From the NCBI GenBank assembly GCA_002928735.1, contig PERL01000005.1:186001-250000 (forward strand): a stretch of 64,000 nucleotides of DNA, given 5' to 3'. Origin of the DNA: Hyphomicrobium sp. (GTDB taxonomy: Bacteria > Pseudomonadota > Alphaproteobacteria > Rhizobiales > Hyphomicrobiaceae). Below the pieces are notes generated by a model. That model was not told the origin of the DNA. It made no database searches and worked only from the letters and a program-made list of their open reading frames with translations. Shown piece after piece: positions 34,264 to 40,148 of the stretch. Made by a program: the position numbers and the translations under genes. How positions within the stretch are numbered: the stretch's first letter is position 1; each line of letters opens with the position of its first letter.

Positions 34264-35052
34264 ATGCTTCGCTCGATTTCGCGCCTTGTTGTTGCTGCCG
34301 CCGCTGGAGTGGTTCTGGTCTCGCCGGCTGGAGCCACGGACCTGTTCGGAAGCGGGCCGCTGGAATTGCAGGCGGGCGGCATGGTGCTGGTGGCGCCGAA
34401 GTACGAGGGCTCGAAGGACTATCAGGTGTTCGGCGTGCCGCTGGTGGCGCCGGCCGGGTCGAACGAGTTCGGGTTCATCCAGTTTCGTGGACCGGAAGAC
34501 ATTCGGTTGCGGGTGATCAATTTCAACGGCTTCGAGGCCGGTCCGCTGACGGGCTGGCGGTTTGACCGCGAGGAAGATGATTCCACGCGGCTGACGGGGC
34601 TTGGCGATGTCGATGGCGGCGTCGTGTTCGGCGGCTACGCGGCTTACCGGTTTGGGGCATTCACACCCTTCGTCTCGTACAGCCATCAGGTGACGGGCGA
34701 CGAGACGGGCGGGCTGCTGCGGTTTGGCGCGGAAGCGCCGGTCTCGATCATCGGCGGCGTCAAGATGACGGGGCAGATCGGCGCGACCTGGGCCGATGAC
34801 GATTACATGGACGCCTTTTTTTCCGTGCGCACGGCGACGCTACTTCTGCCGGTCTATGATGCGGAATCGGGTATCAAGGATGTTTACATCGGTCTCAACG
34901 CGGACGTGCCGCTCAGCAGCCAGTGGAACTTGAAGCTGATCGGCCAGTATTCGCGGCTTGTGGGCGATGCAGCCGATAGCCCGATCGTGGAAAGCGAAGA
35001 TCAGTTCTTCGGCGGGCTTGGGCTGACGTACAAGTTCACGATCGATCGCTGA
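34264..35052 (+). CDS. MipA/OmpV-family outer-membrane protein
   Basis: A 262-aa beta-barrel with signal peptide (to SPAGA). The mature part starts with GSGPLELQAGGMVLVAPKYEGSKDY, the OmpV opening, and contains alternating beta-strand segments ending YKFTIDR. MipA in E. coli is a scaffold for murein hydrolases, but most members are only known as outer-membrane proteins. ATG 34264 was chosen over the longer frame from 34219. The 3' end overlaps the convergent EpsI-like gene by 17 bp. Confidence 0.83.
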   Translation: MLRSISRLVVAAAAGVVLVSPAGATDLFGSGPLELQAGGMVLVAPKYEGSKDYQVFGVPLVAPAGSNEFGFIQFRGPEDIRLRVINFNGFEAGPLTGWRFDREEDDSTRLTGLGDVDGGVVFGGYAAYRFGAFTPFVSYSHQVTGDETGGLLRFGAEAPVSIIGGVKMTGQIGATWADDDYMDAFFSVRTATLLLPVYDAESGIKDVYIGLNADVPLSSQWNLKLIGQYSRLVGDAADSPIVESEDQFFGGLGLTYKFTIDR

Positions 35053-35572
35053 TCGGATACTCGGGCTCAGCAATCACGATGCTCCACCATGGGCCTGTTG
35101 AGCGGCCCAGCAGCGCATCCCAGTACCATTGAGAGATGTCGGACCACGCGGCGCCTTTGCCGTCGCGCAGGCCCTCGCACACGGTGTGGCGGGTATCGCC
35201 TTTGTGCGCGCTGAAGCAGCCGAGCGGCTGGCCGTTGGCGTCGCGGCGGAGCGGCAGCGGTTCGACTGAGAAGCCGAGGCCTTGGTAGCAGTCGCTGGCG
35301 GGGTGGAGGCGGCGCGTGGCGGTCGTGACGTGACGGAGAATGATTTCGCGGTGGCCGTCGGTGAAGCGGCCGATGTGGCCGGGGAAGCCGTCGGCGAAGG
35401 ATTGTTCGCGGGCGGTGAGGGGGAGTTGCGTGAGGGGGCGGCCATCGTGGGTTGCGGGCCAGCCGGGGAAGGCTGTGGCCGTTGGGGCGGATTGGCTTGT
35501 TGCCATGAGCGGGGCTGTGGCGCTGGCGAGGGCGGCGATGACGACGACTGCGCGATGACTAAGGGTGATCAT
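35036..35572 (-). CDS. EpsI-like exosortase-associated periplasmic protein
   Basis: A 178-aa protein with an N-terminal signal segment (to about residue 28). The block HPASDCYQGLGF (90-101) and the tail QWYWDALLG/WWSIVIAE resemble EpsI-type (DUF3485) proteins that are fused to or encoded beside exosortases. Four cysteines (95, 119, 132 and others nearby) may form disulfides. It overlaps the exosortase gene by 4 bp (ATGA), so the two are coupled. In this locus it probably helps the sortase handle its one substrate; its own activity is unknown. Confidence 0.68.
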   Translation of the reverse strand: MITLSHRAVVVIAALASATAPLMATSQSAPTATAFPGWPATHDGRPLTQLPLTAREQSFADGFPGHIGRFTDGHREIILRHVTTATRRLHPASDCYQGLGFSVEPLPLRRDANGQPLGCFSAHKGDTRHTVCEGLRDGKGAAWSDISQWYWDALLGRSTGPWWSIVIAEPEYPISDRS

Positions 35573-36372
35573 GGCAGGGCTCGGGTGGGGGCGATGAACC
35601 AGGGATTGCGGAGGCAGGCGGCAAGGAGTAGCGCCGCGAGAACGAATGCGGCGAGGCCGACGGCTTCGTGCAGCCAGGGCGGTTCGGTCGCCCCCAGCAT
35701 GGTCGTGGCGTAGAGCAGGCTTGCAACGCGGAGCGCGTTGGCGGCGATGGCAACGGTGAGTGTGAGCAGCAGCGCAAGGCTCAGCTTGGCGAGAGACAGG
35801 CGCGCAATGAGCGCTGCCATGAGCGTGACGAGGACCAGCGCCCAGAGCATGGCGATGCCGCTGCAGGGGGCGTCGAACTGGGCGGTCTGGCCGGCGACAG
35901 TGACATAGGTGCCGTCGCGCGTGATGGGAACGCCTTGCAGGTTGAGAAGGGCCACGGTGAGCGTGGCGGAGACGACGCGCAGGGGATAACCGAAGACGAA
36001 TTGCAGCGAGGGGAGGACGGGCATCGCGAGGGCGATGAGACCCCAGAAGGCTGCGGGCGGGGCTGCGTCGTGCGCGGCGCGGTAGAGGATATAAGCCAGA
36101 AGCGTTGTGGCGAGTGCGCTTTGGATGATGGACGGGGCCTGTACGAGGGTGAGGACGGCGTGGAGTGCCAGCATGGCGGCCGGCGGAGTGGGATCGATGC
36201 GAGAGGCCGGCGTGTGTCGGCGCAGGCGTGGCATCGTGAGTGCGCCGAGCAGAACGAATGTGAAGAGGAGCGAGAGGCCTTCTTCGGGCGATTGCGTGAG
36301 GCGATGGATGGTCCAGCGCCAGCTGTCCCAGCAGGCGACCAGCGCGATTGCCGCGAGAGGGAGGGGATGCAT
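35569..36372 (-). CDS. Exosortase (PEP-CTERM sorting transpeptidase)
   Basis: A 267-aa polytopic inner-membrane enzyme with about eight helices. The exosortase/archaeosortase triad is visible: Cys170 in DAPCSGIAMLWAL, Arg215 in ANALRVASLLY, and His235 in WLHEAVGLAAF. These enzymes cleave C-terminal PEP-CTERM tails and are thought to attach the protein to a lipid or glycan. The ATG overlaps the stop of the PEP-CTERM protein gene by 1 base. No lettered Xrt subfamily can be assigned from the sequence alone. Confidence 0.88.
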   Translation of the reverse strand: MHPLPLAAIALVACWDSWRWTIHRLTQSPEEGLSLLFTFVLLGALTMPRLRRHTPASRIDPTPPAAMLALHAVLTLVQAPSIIQSALATTLLAYILYRAAHDAAPPAAFWGLIALAMPVLPSLQFVFGYPLRVVSATLTVALLNLQGVPITRDGTYVTVAGQTAQFDAPCSGIAMLWALVLVTLMAALIARLSLAKLSLALLLTLTVAIAANALRVASLLYATTMLGATEPPWLHEAVGLAAFVLAALLLAACLRNPWFIAPTRALP

Positions 36373-38837
36373 CAGGCGGATGCTCCCGCGAGACTGCGTT
36401 GGCGGTGGGCGAGGTAGCCGAGCAGCGTCATGGCGAGAATGATCAGCGCCCACTCGTGTGGTTCGGGAACAGTGGGGACGGTGCCTTTTGCGACAGGGTT
36501 AAGGTTGGCGGCTTGATATTGCGCGGCGGTTTCGAGGACGACGGCGCCGCTGAGGGGCGTGACGAGGCGCAAATCGGCAGCGAGGCGGGTGGCTTCAGTG
36601 CGGTTGTTTTCGGGGTCTTTCGTCATCAATGCGAGGATTTCGTCGTGGGCCCAGAGGCGGACGATGTGATTGGAGCCGCGCGGGGCCGTGGTGCTCGCCT
36701 CAGTGGAGGCAGGGCGGCGGATTGTGGCGCGTGCGGGTGATGTGAGAATGCGGGCGAGGTCGGTTGCGACGTCGCCATGAGATGGCAGAAGGCGGGCGCG
36801 CCACGCCCAAGGCGCGTCGGGCCAGAGTTCGTTAGGGCCGGGTTCGACGGCGTAGTGATCGATGGCGGGCATCGTGCCGATGCGAGCGGCAGACTGCTCG
36901 AGACGTGATGCCGTTGCTTCGAAGCGGAGCGGTTGCGGGCCGTGGATCCAGAGGAGGCGAGCGTTAGATTCCGTGGATGCGGCCTTCAGGGCCTCGTTTA
37001 GGGCGGGCGTGTTGTCCTGGCCGCCGGTGAAGGTGTGCGCGGCAAGCGCCGTGCTGATACGGGCGGCGTGGGCTTCGCTCCAGGGTGCGGGGTCAATGCT
37101 GACGGACGGTTCGGCGGCGATGTGGAGCCCGACTCGGCGGCCCGGGGCGATTTTGGCAAGTGCCGTGTTGATGGCGCTGGCGTGCGGGCGCATGCGCAAC
37201 GAGCCGTCGACAACGAGGATCAGCGGATTGGTGGGCGGCGTTGAGGACGGCGGCGCTATGCGCTGTTCGATTTCGGGTGCGCCGTTGATGTGAGCGACGC
37301 CAAGCGGGCGTAATGCCTTCTGTTCGATGATCACTTCGGGGCGCAGACGCGCGAGACCGGATTCAGTGAGGGTGCCTTCTAGGCGATGATTGCCGTTGGC
37401 GAGCGGTGCGGACTTGAAGGCGGGGAATGAGGATGTGAGCGGGGTTTTGCTTTCGATCCAGATGGCGTGGGAGGTCTCGCTGCCAATTGTAAAGTTGCGG
37501 TCGGCAATGGCGGGGAGGGCAAATGAAAGGCGGCCATCATCGTTGGCGTACAGGGGGATCGTCATGCCGATTTTCATTTTGAGTGTGCCGTCGCGGGGGA
37601 CGGGGAAGGCTTGCGCGAGGACGCGGCCGGCGCCTTTGGTCGTGACGAGGAGCGGATCGCGGCGCTGCTGGACGGCGACCTGGTCGTAAGCTTTGCGGGC
37701 CTCGGCCCGGCTGGCGTAAGCGGCTTCGCGTTCTTCGCCGTTGACCCAGAGCGTGGCGCGGGAGACGACGGCGTCTTGCGGCAGCATCAGCGAGAGGCGG
37801 GCTTCTCGGTCGAGTGCGGAGACGTTGCGGAATTCGAAGATCCATTCGAGGTAGCCCGCGGCATCGGCGGCAGCGATGGAGCCATCCATGCGCGAGGAGA
37901 TCAATGAGAGGCCTTTGATGCGGCCACCGGTTTGGGCTGCGCCGTGGTCGGCGTCGAAGGCAAAATCATCGAAGCGGGCCCATTTGCGGCCGGTCTCCGG
38001 CGGGGGGAAGGCGTTGAAGGGGACGCCATAGGTTCGATAGAAAATTTCGCGAACCTTGTCGGGGTAAGGCATAGGATCGGCATTGCCGCGGTCGAAGATC
38101 AGCGGGGTGGTGAGGCCGAAGACGAGGCTTAGGGGGCCGCCGGACTTGCGCCCGGTGTCGTAGGTGAAGCGCAACAGGTCCTGCTGGCTGCCGAACGTGC
38201 GCAGCGTCGAGAGGCCGCGTTCGCGGGTGGCGGTGTCGTCACTGGCGGCCCAGATGAGGCCGAGACGTGTTGCGACGCCGGGGATGTCGAGCGCGATGAG
38301 CGCGGCTGTACCGGCGAGCGCGCCGATGAGGATGGGGCGGCGCAACGAGGCCTGCGGGGTTAGGGCTTTCATTCGGCGCAGAAGGGCCCAAGCCGAGAGG
38401 CAGCTTGTGGCCGGCCCGAACGGCAAGAGACCCAGACCGAAGTAGAGGATCGCGACGACGGCGATTGGGGCCAAAGGCAGGAAGAGCAGCGCGTAAAACG
38501 CGGAGACTGCGATCGACGAGGCGAGGAAGCCGGCAAGCCATGGCGACGGGGAGGTATTGCGCTGGCGGGTGCGGGCGAGAGCGATGGCGTTGGTGGCCGG
38601 GGCAGAAGAGATAAGGAGGGTATGGGCCCAAGTCGGCATGGGGTCGAAGAAAGCCTCGGCGCAGAGGCGGAAGGCGGCTTCGAGAATGATGACGGCGGTT
38701 GGGAGTGCAACGCCGAAGAGGGCGATGAGGATGTCGCCGGACCGGCTTTCTGGCGGGGGTGCGGGGAGGGACGGTGCGAGGGGAGTCCATTCGATAATGG
38801 GTGTCGGCGGGGGCAAATGGGCTTTGCGATTGCTCAT
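36372..38837 (-). CDS. Polytopic VIT/VWA-like protein with PEP-CTERM signal
   Basis: An 821-aa protein, probably the single substrate of the exosortase next door. N-terminal hydrophobic helices lie near residues 35-55, 71-87, 103-122, 124-145 and 168-187. A VIT-like domain (about 315-430) has WVNGEEREAAYASRAEARKA followed by YDQVAVQQRRDPLLV. A VWA-like region (about 536-660) starts LVVDGSLRM; the metal site is degenerate (DxSxR instead of DxSxS) although GGQDNTPAL is kept. The tail VPEPHEWALIILAMTLLGYL plus HRQR (residues 790-814) is a textbook PEP-CTERM signal. ATG 38837 has AAGGAG about 11 bases upstream. Confidence 0.8.
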   Translation of the reverse strand: MSNRKAHLPPPTPIIEWTPLAPSLPAPPPESRSGDILIALFGVALPTAVIILEAAFRLCAEAFFDPMPTWAHTLLISSAPATNAIALARTRQRNTSPSPWLAGFLASSIAVSAFYALLFLPLAPIAVVAILYFGLGLLPFGPATSCLSAWALLRRMKALTPQASLRRPILIGALAGTAALIALDIPGVATRLGLIWAASDDTATRERGLSTLRTFGSQQDLLRFTYDTGRKSGGPLSLVFGLTTPLIFDRGNADPMPYPDKVREIFYRTYGVPFNAFPPPETGRKWARFDDFAFDADHGAAQTGGRIKGLSLISSRMDGSIAAADAAGYLEWIFEFRNVSALDREARLSLMLPQDAVVSRATLWVNGEEREAAYASRAEARKAYDQVAVQQRRDPLLVTTKGAGRVLAQAFPVPRDGTLKMKIGMTIPLYANDDGRLSFALPAIADRNFTIGSETSHAIWIESKTPLTSSFPAFKSAPLANGNHRLEGTLTESGLARLRPEVIIEQKALRPLGVAHINGAPEIEQRIAPPSSTPPTNPLILVVDGSLRMRPHASAINTALAKIAPGRRVGLHIAAEPSVSIDPAPWSEAHAARISTALAAHTFTGGQDNTPALNEALKAASTESNARLLWIHGPQPLRFEATASRLEQSAARIGTMPAIDHYAVEPGPNELWPDAPWAWRARLLPSHGDVATDLARILTSPARATIRRPASTEASTTAPRGSNHIVRLWAHDEILALMTKDPENNRTEATRLAADLRLVTPLSGAVVLETAAQYQAANLNPVAKGTVPTVPEPHEWALIILAMTLLGYLAHRQRSLAGASA

Positions 38838-39092
38838 GGGGGCGGGGCTCCTTCCACCAGGGTGGCGGGAGCATGCGATGTGCACGGGCGGGTTTGCCGC
38901 TGGATTGTTCCGTCAACTTCAGCCGCAGCCGACCGATTTTGTGCGGTTGTGTGGGCCCCGCGCCGTCATTGTCCGGATTAGATTCGATGAGGTGAAAGAG
39001 ATACACCCATTAAATTCGGCAATGTTGGGCTTGAACTCTTCCCGACGGGCTCCCACGTCGCGAGGTTGTAAGACCTTGTGGGGAGCACAGTC

Positions 39093-40148
39093 GTGGTCGA
39101 ACTTTTCAGTACTTTATTCATGGGGATGCCGATTTGGGTTTGGCTCGCCTTTCTGGCGATCGTCATCACCATCCTGGCCATCGACCTGGGGCTGCTGCAC
39201 GGCGAGGCCCATGAGCCGACCTTGAAGGAAAGCACCATTCTCGCCGGCGCTTGTATGACGCTGGGTGTCGCGTTCTCGGCGGTGGTGTGGTGGCTCTATT
39301 ACAACGGTATTGCGACATCGCTCGATGACGACATCGCGAATGCGGCGAGTGACAGCGCGCGGGCGTGGACGGCGTGGGAACTCTATCTGACTGGGTGGGT
39401 GGTCGAACAGACGCTCGCGTTCGACAACGTCTTCGTCATGGCGATGATTTTTTCGTACTTCGCCATTCCGCGGAAGTATCAGCATCGCGTGCTGTTCTAC
39501 GGCATCCTGGGCGTGATCATCCTGCGCGCGATTATGATCGGGCTAGGCGCGGCGCTGATCCATCAGTTCGAGTGGATCCTGTATATCTTCGCCGCCTTCC
39601 TGGTGTTCACGGGCATCAAGATGTTCATCATGGCGGATCAGGAGCCGGATATCGCTAACAATCCGATCTTGAAATACATGCGCCGCCATATGCGCATCAC
39701 CGAAAAAGTTCATGGTGAGAAATTCTTCGTCCACGAACCCGACCCGAAGACCGGCAAGGTTGTGCGGTGGGCCACACCGCTGTTTGTTGCGCTGGTGCTG
39801 ATCGAGTTCGCGGATCTGATCTTCGCCGTCGACTCGGTGCCGGCGATTTTTGCGATCACGCAGGATCCGTTCATCGTTTACACGTCGAATATCTTCGCGA
39901 TCCTGGGGCTCCGGTCGCTCTACTTCGTGCTGGCGGCGATGGTGCATCGCTTCCACTACCTGAAGTATGCTCTGTCGCTGGTTCTGGTCTATGTGGGCGG
40001 CAAGGTGTTCGTGCAGCAGTTCATCGGCAAGATCGATCCGGCAATCAGCTTGAGCGTTACGATCGCCATTCTGCTTGGTGGCATTCTACTGTCGCTGTGG
40101 AAGACGCGGAACGATCCGCCGGCTGCCAAGACTGCTCTTGCGGAGTAA
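39093..40148 (+). CDS. TerC-family membrane protein
   Basis: A 351-aa integral membrane protein with about nine helices. TerC marks are AIDLGLLHG, WVVEQTLAFDNVFVMAMIFSYF and LIEFADLIFAVDSVPAIFAIT, with the conserved acidic residues thought to bind Mn2+. TerC/Alx proteins export or protect against Mn2+ or support insertion of exported proteins. GTG 39093 (GGGGAG 7 bases upstream) was preferred to GTG 39078. No yybP-ykoY-like leader is evident in the 255-bp spacer before it. A terminator follows. Confidence 0.9.
   Translation: MVELFSTLFMGMPIWVWLAFLAIVITILAIDLGLLHGEAHEPTLKESTILAGACMTLGVAFSAVVWWLYYNGIATSLDDDIANAASDSARAWTAWELYLTGWVVEQTLAFDNVFVMAMIFSYFAIPRKYQHRVLFYGILGVIILRAIMIGLGAALIHQFEWILYIFAAFLVFTGIKMFIMADQEPDIANNPILKYMRRHMRITEKVHGEKFFVHEPDPKTGKVVRWATPLFVALVLIEFADLIFAVDSVPAIFAITQDPFIVYTSNIFAILGLRSLYFVLAAMVHRFHYLKYALSLVLVYVGGKVFVQQFIGKIDPAISLSVTIAILLGGILLSLWKTRNDPPAAKTALAE

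Follow-up and report, generated by a model that had tools for sequence, protein, structure and literature searches.

A 64,000-nucleotide stretch of Hyphomicrobium sp. DNA (assembly GCA_002928735.1, contig PERL01000005.1, positions 186,001 to 250,000; this whole stretch is referred to here as the window) carries on its minus strand three genes that probably form a self-contained sorting cassette: one exosortase (X), one periplasmic partner (I) and one substrate (T). The open reading frames (ORFs) of T, X and I all lie where a sequence-only reading of the window had placed them, and the overlaps it reported are borne out: the stop of T and the start of X share 1 base, and X and I share 4. T begins at the ATG at position 38837, with AAGGAG ten bases upstream (Table 1). 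Gene content, gene order, the catalytic residues and the tail of T can be read directly from the DNA, and a search of the genome found no further exosortase or matching tail. X probably trims and sorts T only, and an enzyme–substrate cassette dedicated to T is, we consider, the sound part of the interpretation.

Table 1. Features of the cassette and of the loci compared with it (positions in the window or, for other loci, in the locus named)
Feature	Sequence	Position	Strand	Basis
T: target, 821 aa; N-terminal membrane bundle, VIT, VWA fold, PEP-CTERM tail	Window	36372..38837	-	ORF, Pfam VIT, TIGR04477 135 bits, model, AAGGAG
X: exosortase, 267 aa, XrtQ-like; Cys170, Arg215, His235	Window	35569..36372	-	PF09721, NF012182 118/270 bits, invariant residues, tree
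I: EpsI-like protein, 178 aa; invariant R80, R87, H90, C95, E133, W149, W151	Window	35036..35572	-	26 proteins
Shine-Dalgarno-like AAGGAG before T	Window	38848..38853	-	sequence
T residues 33-197: predicted membrane bundle, five helices, N-terminus inside	Window	38247..38741	-	model, loop charges
T residues 306-500: VIT domain and following beta region	Window	37338..37922	-	Pfam VIT, inter-alpha-inhibitor heavy chain 1 alignment from residue 307
T residues 530-702: VWA fold, degenerate metal site	Window	36732..37250	-	model, 30-sequence alignment
T residues 787-821: PEP-CTERM tail (VPEP, helix, basic end)	Window	36375..36479	-	28-tail alignment, own-genome search
Cassette absent at equivalent site of same-genus genome G001 (264 bases there)	Window	35065..39091	.	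genome comparison
Cassette-free site of G001	L148	7079-10601		
Permuted cassette, X-I-T	L033	6969-10813		
True XrtQ targets	L128; L130; L131	5134-7194; 8377-11064; 4925-7120		
T homologues without X	L048; L057	5309-8307; 5725-8358		
Second VIT-like protein	L039	9685-12747		
CreB-like regulators	L032; L042; L051; L080; L130	6814-7524; 9513-10352; 5002-5811; 5043-5780; 12243-13118		

Relatives were gathered by scanning a sequence collection with four T proteins through two peptide patterns; 80 of 117 relatives were kept, and the resulting counts are lower bounds. Together with the window and three loci taken from genomes, these made 84 loci that were profiled for T, X and I. X is present in 36 of them; in 35 of these (34 distinct, L047 being a duplicate of L031) the T and X genes are neighbours with a common orientation. 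A separate I gene or a fused I domain is found in 33 of the 35 (32 distinct), which is every locus where it could be sought, the contig ending in the other two; in six loci it is fused to X. One locus of the 35 (L033) has the order permuted to X-I-T, which suggests selection for keeping the genes together. Distances of the three proteins are correlated with one another (T with X, r 0.84 over 28 loci; T with I, 0.75 over 23; X with I, 0.79 over 26; Mantel p 0.0002 each), a pattern that shared species history can also produce.

The expectation that such a system would be unusual among proteobacteria is not supported. Of the 33 distinct loci placed in the X tree, 22 are Pseudomonadota, and four loci of true XrtQ exosortases likewise adjoin VIT/VWA targets; the other 11 distinct loci come from eight further phyla (Myxococcota, Thermodesulfobacteriota, Acidobacteriota, Planctomycetota, Armatimonadota, Sumerlaeota, Hydrogenedentota and one metagenome-assembled genome (MAG) labelled Bacillota). 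The nearest locus is that of Hyphomicrobium sp. 12-62-95 (T 88%, the neighbours argG and terC 98%). T is absent from the six related genomes sampled, one from the genus and five from the family. Matches to T elsewhere in the order and class are weak and single-domain (17 to 27 bits), and were not counted as relatives. Among 398 genomes of the phylum, T was counted in G000, G765, G900 and G630, and these same four, with no others, have an XrtQ-like X that scores E 1e-20 or better yet stays below the XrtQ cut-off; true XrtQ occurs in four others. Fifteen of the 398 match TIGR04477, the family of the XrtN-system VIT target; in 11 the match is weak (19 to 27 bits) and was likewise left out of the count.

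By general models, X is an exosortase. It matches Pfam PF09721 at E 3.5e-25 and 89.3 bits (cut-off 25.7) and the NCBIfam signature TIGR04178, general to exosortases and archaeosortases, at 45.7 bits (cut-off 23). Cys170, Arg215 and His235, singled out in the sequence-only reading, are invariant in all 32 aligned X proteins (alignment A3, which excludes L031, L035 and L077). All subfamily models score X below their cut-offs: XrtQ (NF012182) at 117.8 bits (cut-off 270), generic exosortase at 56 (106), XrtN (TIGR04476) at 52.5 (200) and XrtT (NF033770) at 51 (250), with XrtA also at 51. The NCBIfam scan (release 20.0) covered 10 X and 11 T proteins picked across phyla from the 84 loci, and XrtQ was the top match for all ten X proteins, at 118–173 bits and always under 270; the X proteins of G765, G900 and G630 score 80–127 bits to it. 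To judge by these models, X is XrtQ-like, not XrtN-like. No NCBIfam subfamily model claims any X or T protein scanned, and the trio appears to be without a curated family of its own.

The tail of T ends in VPEP, a helix and HRQR, as had been noticed from the sequence, and the motif is conserved: across 28 aligned tails its P and E are invariant, and the flanking prolines are at least 90% conserved. Checked against NCBIfam, as had been proposed, X passes the general exosortase signature, and T has only weak matches to PEP-CTERM families (best E 0.0013, 18.6 bits, cut-off 65). The standard models PF07589 and TIGR02595 find nothing over cut-off anywhere in the genome, T included. Fourteen control genomes were also scanned; at a lax threshold the two models match in 13 and 12 of them, with TIGR02595 over cut-off in 2. 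These models were rejected for counting substrates because they miss T itself yet match most controls, and a family profile built from the 28 tails was used instead. In the genome of the window (3.34 Mb, 30 contigs, 96.86% complete) this profile finds T at E 1.1e-17 and, beyond T, nothing better than E 0.145; three weak matches leave out at least the first 11 profile positions and with them most of the motif. X is the sole exosortase detected there.

The same count was extended to the genomes of 29 of the 34 distinct trio loci (L035, L043, L077, L078 and L089 are left out), with exosortases taken at E 1e-5 and tails at E 0.01. Twelve of the 29 have one exosortase, and in all twelve T is the only tail detected; among the 17 with two to four exosortases, ten have one tail and seven have more (two-sided Fisher p 0.023 for 12/12 against 10/17). 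Pseudomaricurvus alkylphenolicus KCTC 32386 and Sphingomonas deserti GL-C-18, for example, carry the trio plus a second exosortase each. Completeness is given for 4 of the 29 genomes, the twelve being mostly MAGs, and in four of the 29 the number of tail candidates scored was 150 out of 155 to 171 (one of them, G938, at 150 of 157, is a single-exosortase genome). The idea of a one-target exosortase, raised from the sequence, agrees with these counts.

T itself has an unusual build for a sorted protein. Where PEP-CTERM proteins have a signal peptide, T has a predicted membrane bundle, whose five helices were assigned by hand from the model and the sequence. Mean lysine plus arginine counts per loop in 30 sequences are high in loops 2 and 4 (2.67 and 4.10) and low in loops 1 and 3 (0.33 and 0.00), which points to an N-terminus inside, a body outside, and a tail helix returning to the membrane. 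The alignment of T proteins (A2) excludes L031, L043 (partial), L089 (frameshifted), L032 and L033. The VIT- and VWA-like regions of the sequence-only reading are both present: residues 351–439 match Pfam VIT (PF08487) at 31.2 bits (cut-off 26.5), and the VWA region, although below the cut-off of VWA_2 (14.1 bits, cut-off 27), has a clear VWA fold in the predicted model (Z 16.4, root-mean-square deviation (rmsd) 3.1, 166 residues). The model as a whole has a predicted local distance difference test (pLDDT) score of 84.4 and a predicted template modelling (pTM) score of 0.81. Its VWA metal site, the metal-ion-dependent adhesion site (MIDAS), is altered: D544 is kept in 30/30 sequences and S546 in 28/30, and, judging by motif position, the motif Thr is found in none of the 30 and the motif Asp is replaced by His632 in all 30. 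Because of this, binding by T is probably not classical metal-dependent adhesion.

By fold, T comes closest to inter-alpha-inhibitor heavy chain 1, a human serum protein (Foldseek E 2.7e-21, TM 0.33 by query; Z 17.1 over 408 residues, rmsd 8.0), and the sequence profile of T finds heavy chain H4 at E 2.2e-11, its best stretch lying past the VWA part. T shares the VIT, VWA and post-VWA architecture of these animal proteins and differs from them in being membrane-embedded, in its altered metal site, and in an unrelated processing enzyme; the high rmsd over the whole chain means that its domains are probably shifted relative to heavy chain 1. Among bacterial families, TIGR04477 is the top NCBIfam match for 11/11 T proteins scanned (including that of L048, which lacks X), never over cut-off (134.9 bits for the window's T, cut-off 250). 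This agrees with the kinship to the XrtN-system target that had been suspected. The alignment covers the VIT and C-terminal regions in the window's T and, in that of G900, the membrane region also.

I was described in the sequence-only reading as an EpsI-like periplasmic protein, a description that survives in part. I matches the C-terminal part of the XrtT model NF033770 at E 2.1e-7 (29.9 bits, below the cut-off of 250), and the X-I fusions L049, L108 and L110 match the same model including that part, also below cut-off; fusion L049 aligns to XrtT, XrtO and XrtD beyond the exosortase portion. On the other side, Pfam DUF3485 (PF11984) is matched by none of 26 I proteins, and a profile–profile comparison with it is weak (8.7% probability, E 0.0038, 41 columns that include a His and Cys motif). 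The 2006 paper that defined PEP-CTERM and EpsH describes EpsI-like regions fused to, or beside, EpsH-type proteins, their function being given there as not known (PMC1569441). The natural X-I fusion of L051 gave a confident model (pLDDT 86.3, pTM 0.80), built on an alignment (A5) that mixes fusions with X-only and I-only rows. No PDB structure matched this model at E 0.001 or better, nor did the X-I sequence profile match anything in the PDB at E 1. PsbP-, Mog1- and SciW-like folds appeared against the I part, but with Z no higher than 5.4 these matches are not strong enough to build on.

Taken together, these features fit the following scheme. T would insert in the inner membrane by five helices with its N-terminus inside, expose its VIT–VWA body, similar to heavy chain 1, in the periplasm, and re-enter the membrane through the PEP-CTERM helix. 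X, embedded alongside T, would attack near the PEP motif via Cys170, aided by Arg215 and His235, so that the C-terminal helix comes free and either an acceptor or water takes up the new C-terminus, while I, on the periplasmic side, would position the substrate or the acceptor. Before processing, the body of T would be anchored by both ends; afterwards its N-terminus would anchor it and its C-terminus would be joined to something else. Because T keeps its N-terminal helices, release to the surface is probably not the purpose; more likely, processing changes what the C-terminus is bound to. Inter-alpha-trypsin inhibitor heavy chains have a C-terminal propeptide that is processed, after which they are ester-linked to a polysaccharide, hyaluronan. 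By analogy, the cassette might be a bacterial counterpart of heavy-chain transfer, in which X and I attach the new C-terminus of T covalently to a glycan or lipid of the envelope. T, still anchored in the inner membrane, would then form a covalent bridge from there to another envelope layer; this is speculative, and we think it unlikely. A genome with a single set of enzyme, partner and substrate would allow the acceptor used by an exosortase to be read from one C-terminus. T is also an odd substrate, for it already sits in the membrane and resembles in shape those animal proteins that have their C-terminus moved onto a polysaccharide.

The most serious competing account, partly compatible with a dedicated cassette, is that X is only a divergent XrtQ and the operon an XrtQ system with an ordinary VIT/VWA target. 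We consider it possible, if doubtful. Besides the top rank of XrtQ in every X protein scanned, it draws on the X tree, in which 34 T-linked X rows (33 distinct) and four true XrtQ group together against eight EpsI-linked exosortases (support 100/100), and on the XrtQ loci themselves, which share the order VIT/VWA target, X, I and targets with a PEP-CTERM-like tail. Within that tree (L077 excluded; XrtN, XrtO and XrtT are not represented, and the root is not fixed) the true XrtQ are one clade (100/100) among unresolved T-linked branches. Yet every T-linked X scored lies far below the XrtQ cut-off. The targets of true XrtQ also differ from T. Three that were scanned match TIGR03788 at 407–424 bits (cut-off 552), two scanned by Pfam pass the VIT and VWA cut-offs, and, by eye, XrtQ targets are secreted proteins with a single signal-like N-terminal stretch, no membrane bundle and the metal site intact; the T profile scores 20 and 12 bits in two of the four XrtQ loci and nothing in the other two. 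Apparently these three targets (L128, L130 and L131) have the body of the marine proteobacterial sortase target with a PEP-CTERM-like tail, an exosortase taking the place of the sortase. That dedicated sortase system (TIGR03785, TIGR03787, TIGR03788) resembles the cassette by name, as a dedicated enzyme for a VIT/VWA-type protein; its enzyme is a sortase, not an exosortase, and T reaches just 12 bits to TIGR03788.

It is less likely again that X does not process T at all, T being held in the inner membrane by its tail while X is inactive or acts on a substrate that the profile misses. With five helices predicted in T already, sorting is not obviously needed, and 48 of the 84 T loci have no X in the DNA examined (some contigs are short). 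Against this stand the invariant catalytic residues, the tight linkage, the lack of a second tail in 12/12 single-exosortase genomes, and a PEP-like motif in the last 70 residues of 44 of the 48 T proteins without X. The dedicated cassette remains our preferred interpretation, and several points tell against it. The loci without X, and L095, whose only exosortase lies apart on the other strand and groups with other exosortases in the tree, mean that T does not travel with X everywhere. The twelve single-exosortase genomes are not all independent, those of the window and of L034 being close kin, and seven of the 17 multi-exosortase genomes hold further tails. The tail profile could miss divergent substrates, and the standard models miss even T. 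The role assigned to I is argued from linkage and fusion, its kinship to EpsI being weak by profile; the whole-chain fold match of T has a low TM-score and a high rmsd, so its domain arrangement may differ from that of heavy chain 1. Cleavage of T by X, and its transfer, are predictions from genes and models.

Least probable is that a Bacteroidota XrtN system has moved into proteobacteria, Bacteroidota being the taxonomic range of XrtN systems: TIGR04477 is indeed the best match of every T scanned, including G900's with its membrane region, but T and X both miss the XrtN cut-offs, X prefers XrtQ, and the X tree, which has no XrtN sequence in it, gives a broad multi-phylum group rather than a recent import. 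Other known systems are further away. MSEP-CTERM proteins (TIGR04286), which we take to pair with XrtK, match 9 of the 10 X-linked T proteins scanned weakly, at 40–60 bits (40 for the window's T, cut-off 150), and X has just 18 bits to XrtK. XrtT, whose model has a C-terminal part that I and the X-I fusions match, is reached at 30–86 bits against 250. A search covering part of the exosortase literature found no account of an exosortase system with a VIT/VWA-type target. XrtF is required for surface colonisation, its substrates being left for later work (PMC10936215).

The genomic setting of the cassette gives little sign of a wider pathway. In flanks of up to 6 kb for most loci, several contigs ending within a few hundred bases, no neighbour family (ORFs of at least 85 aa, blastp 1e-8) is common to more than 4 of 34 loci. 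On that count a link to exopolysaccharide (EPS) synthesis, already doubted from the sequence, was rejected. At the equivalent site of G001, mipA and terC flank 264 bases in place of the window's 35065-39091, and terC, mipA and argG are adjacent in this cassette-free locus (L148). The cassette is clearly present here and absent in G001; either a gain here or a loss there would account for this. A horizontal island was rejected on composition, G+C content being 0.661 in the cassette against 0.639 in the window (higher than 93% of 4-kb windows), with no 10-mer common to the flanks 34951-35150 and 38901-39130. Carriage on a plasmid was rejected too, nothing having matched in the plasmid collection.

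Some smaller observations concern the relatives. Many of the 48 T homologues without X come from Verrucomicrobia; among the 48, the tails of L048 and L057 pass the Pfam PEP-CTERM cut-off, and the L048 protein has a PadR gene upstream and a HAAS-like N-terminus (23.1 bits, cut-off 27). L039, from a Sphingomonas MAG, encodes directly after I a second VIT-like protein of about 1000 aa, which scores 46 bits to the T profile and has no NCBIfam match at E 1e-10. Four of the 34 T-X-I loci, and one of the four true XrtQ loci, have a CreB-like response regulator no more than 6 kb away, accompanied by a histidine kinase in L032, L042, L080 and L130; of the four regulators and two kinases scanned, only the proteins of L130 pass the CreB and CreC cut-offs.

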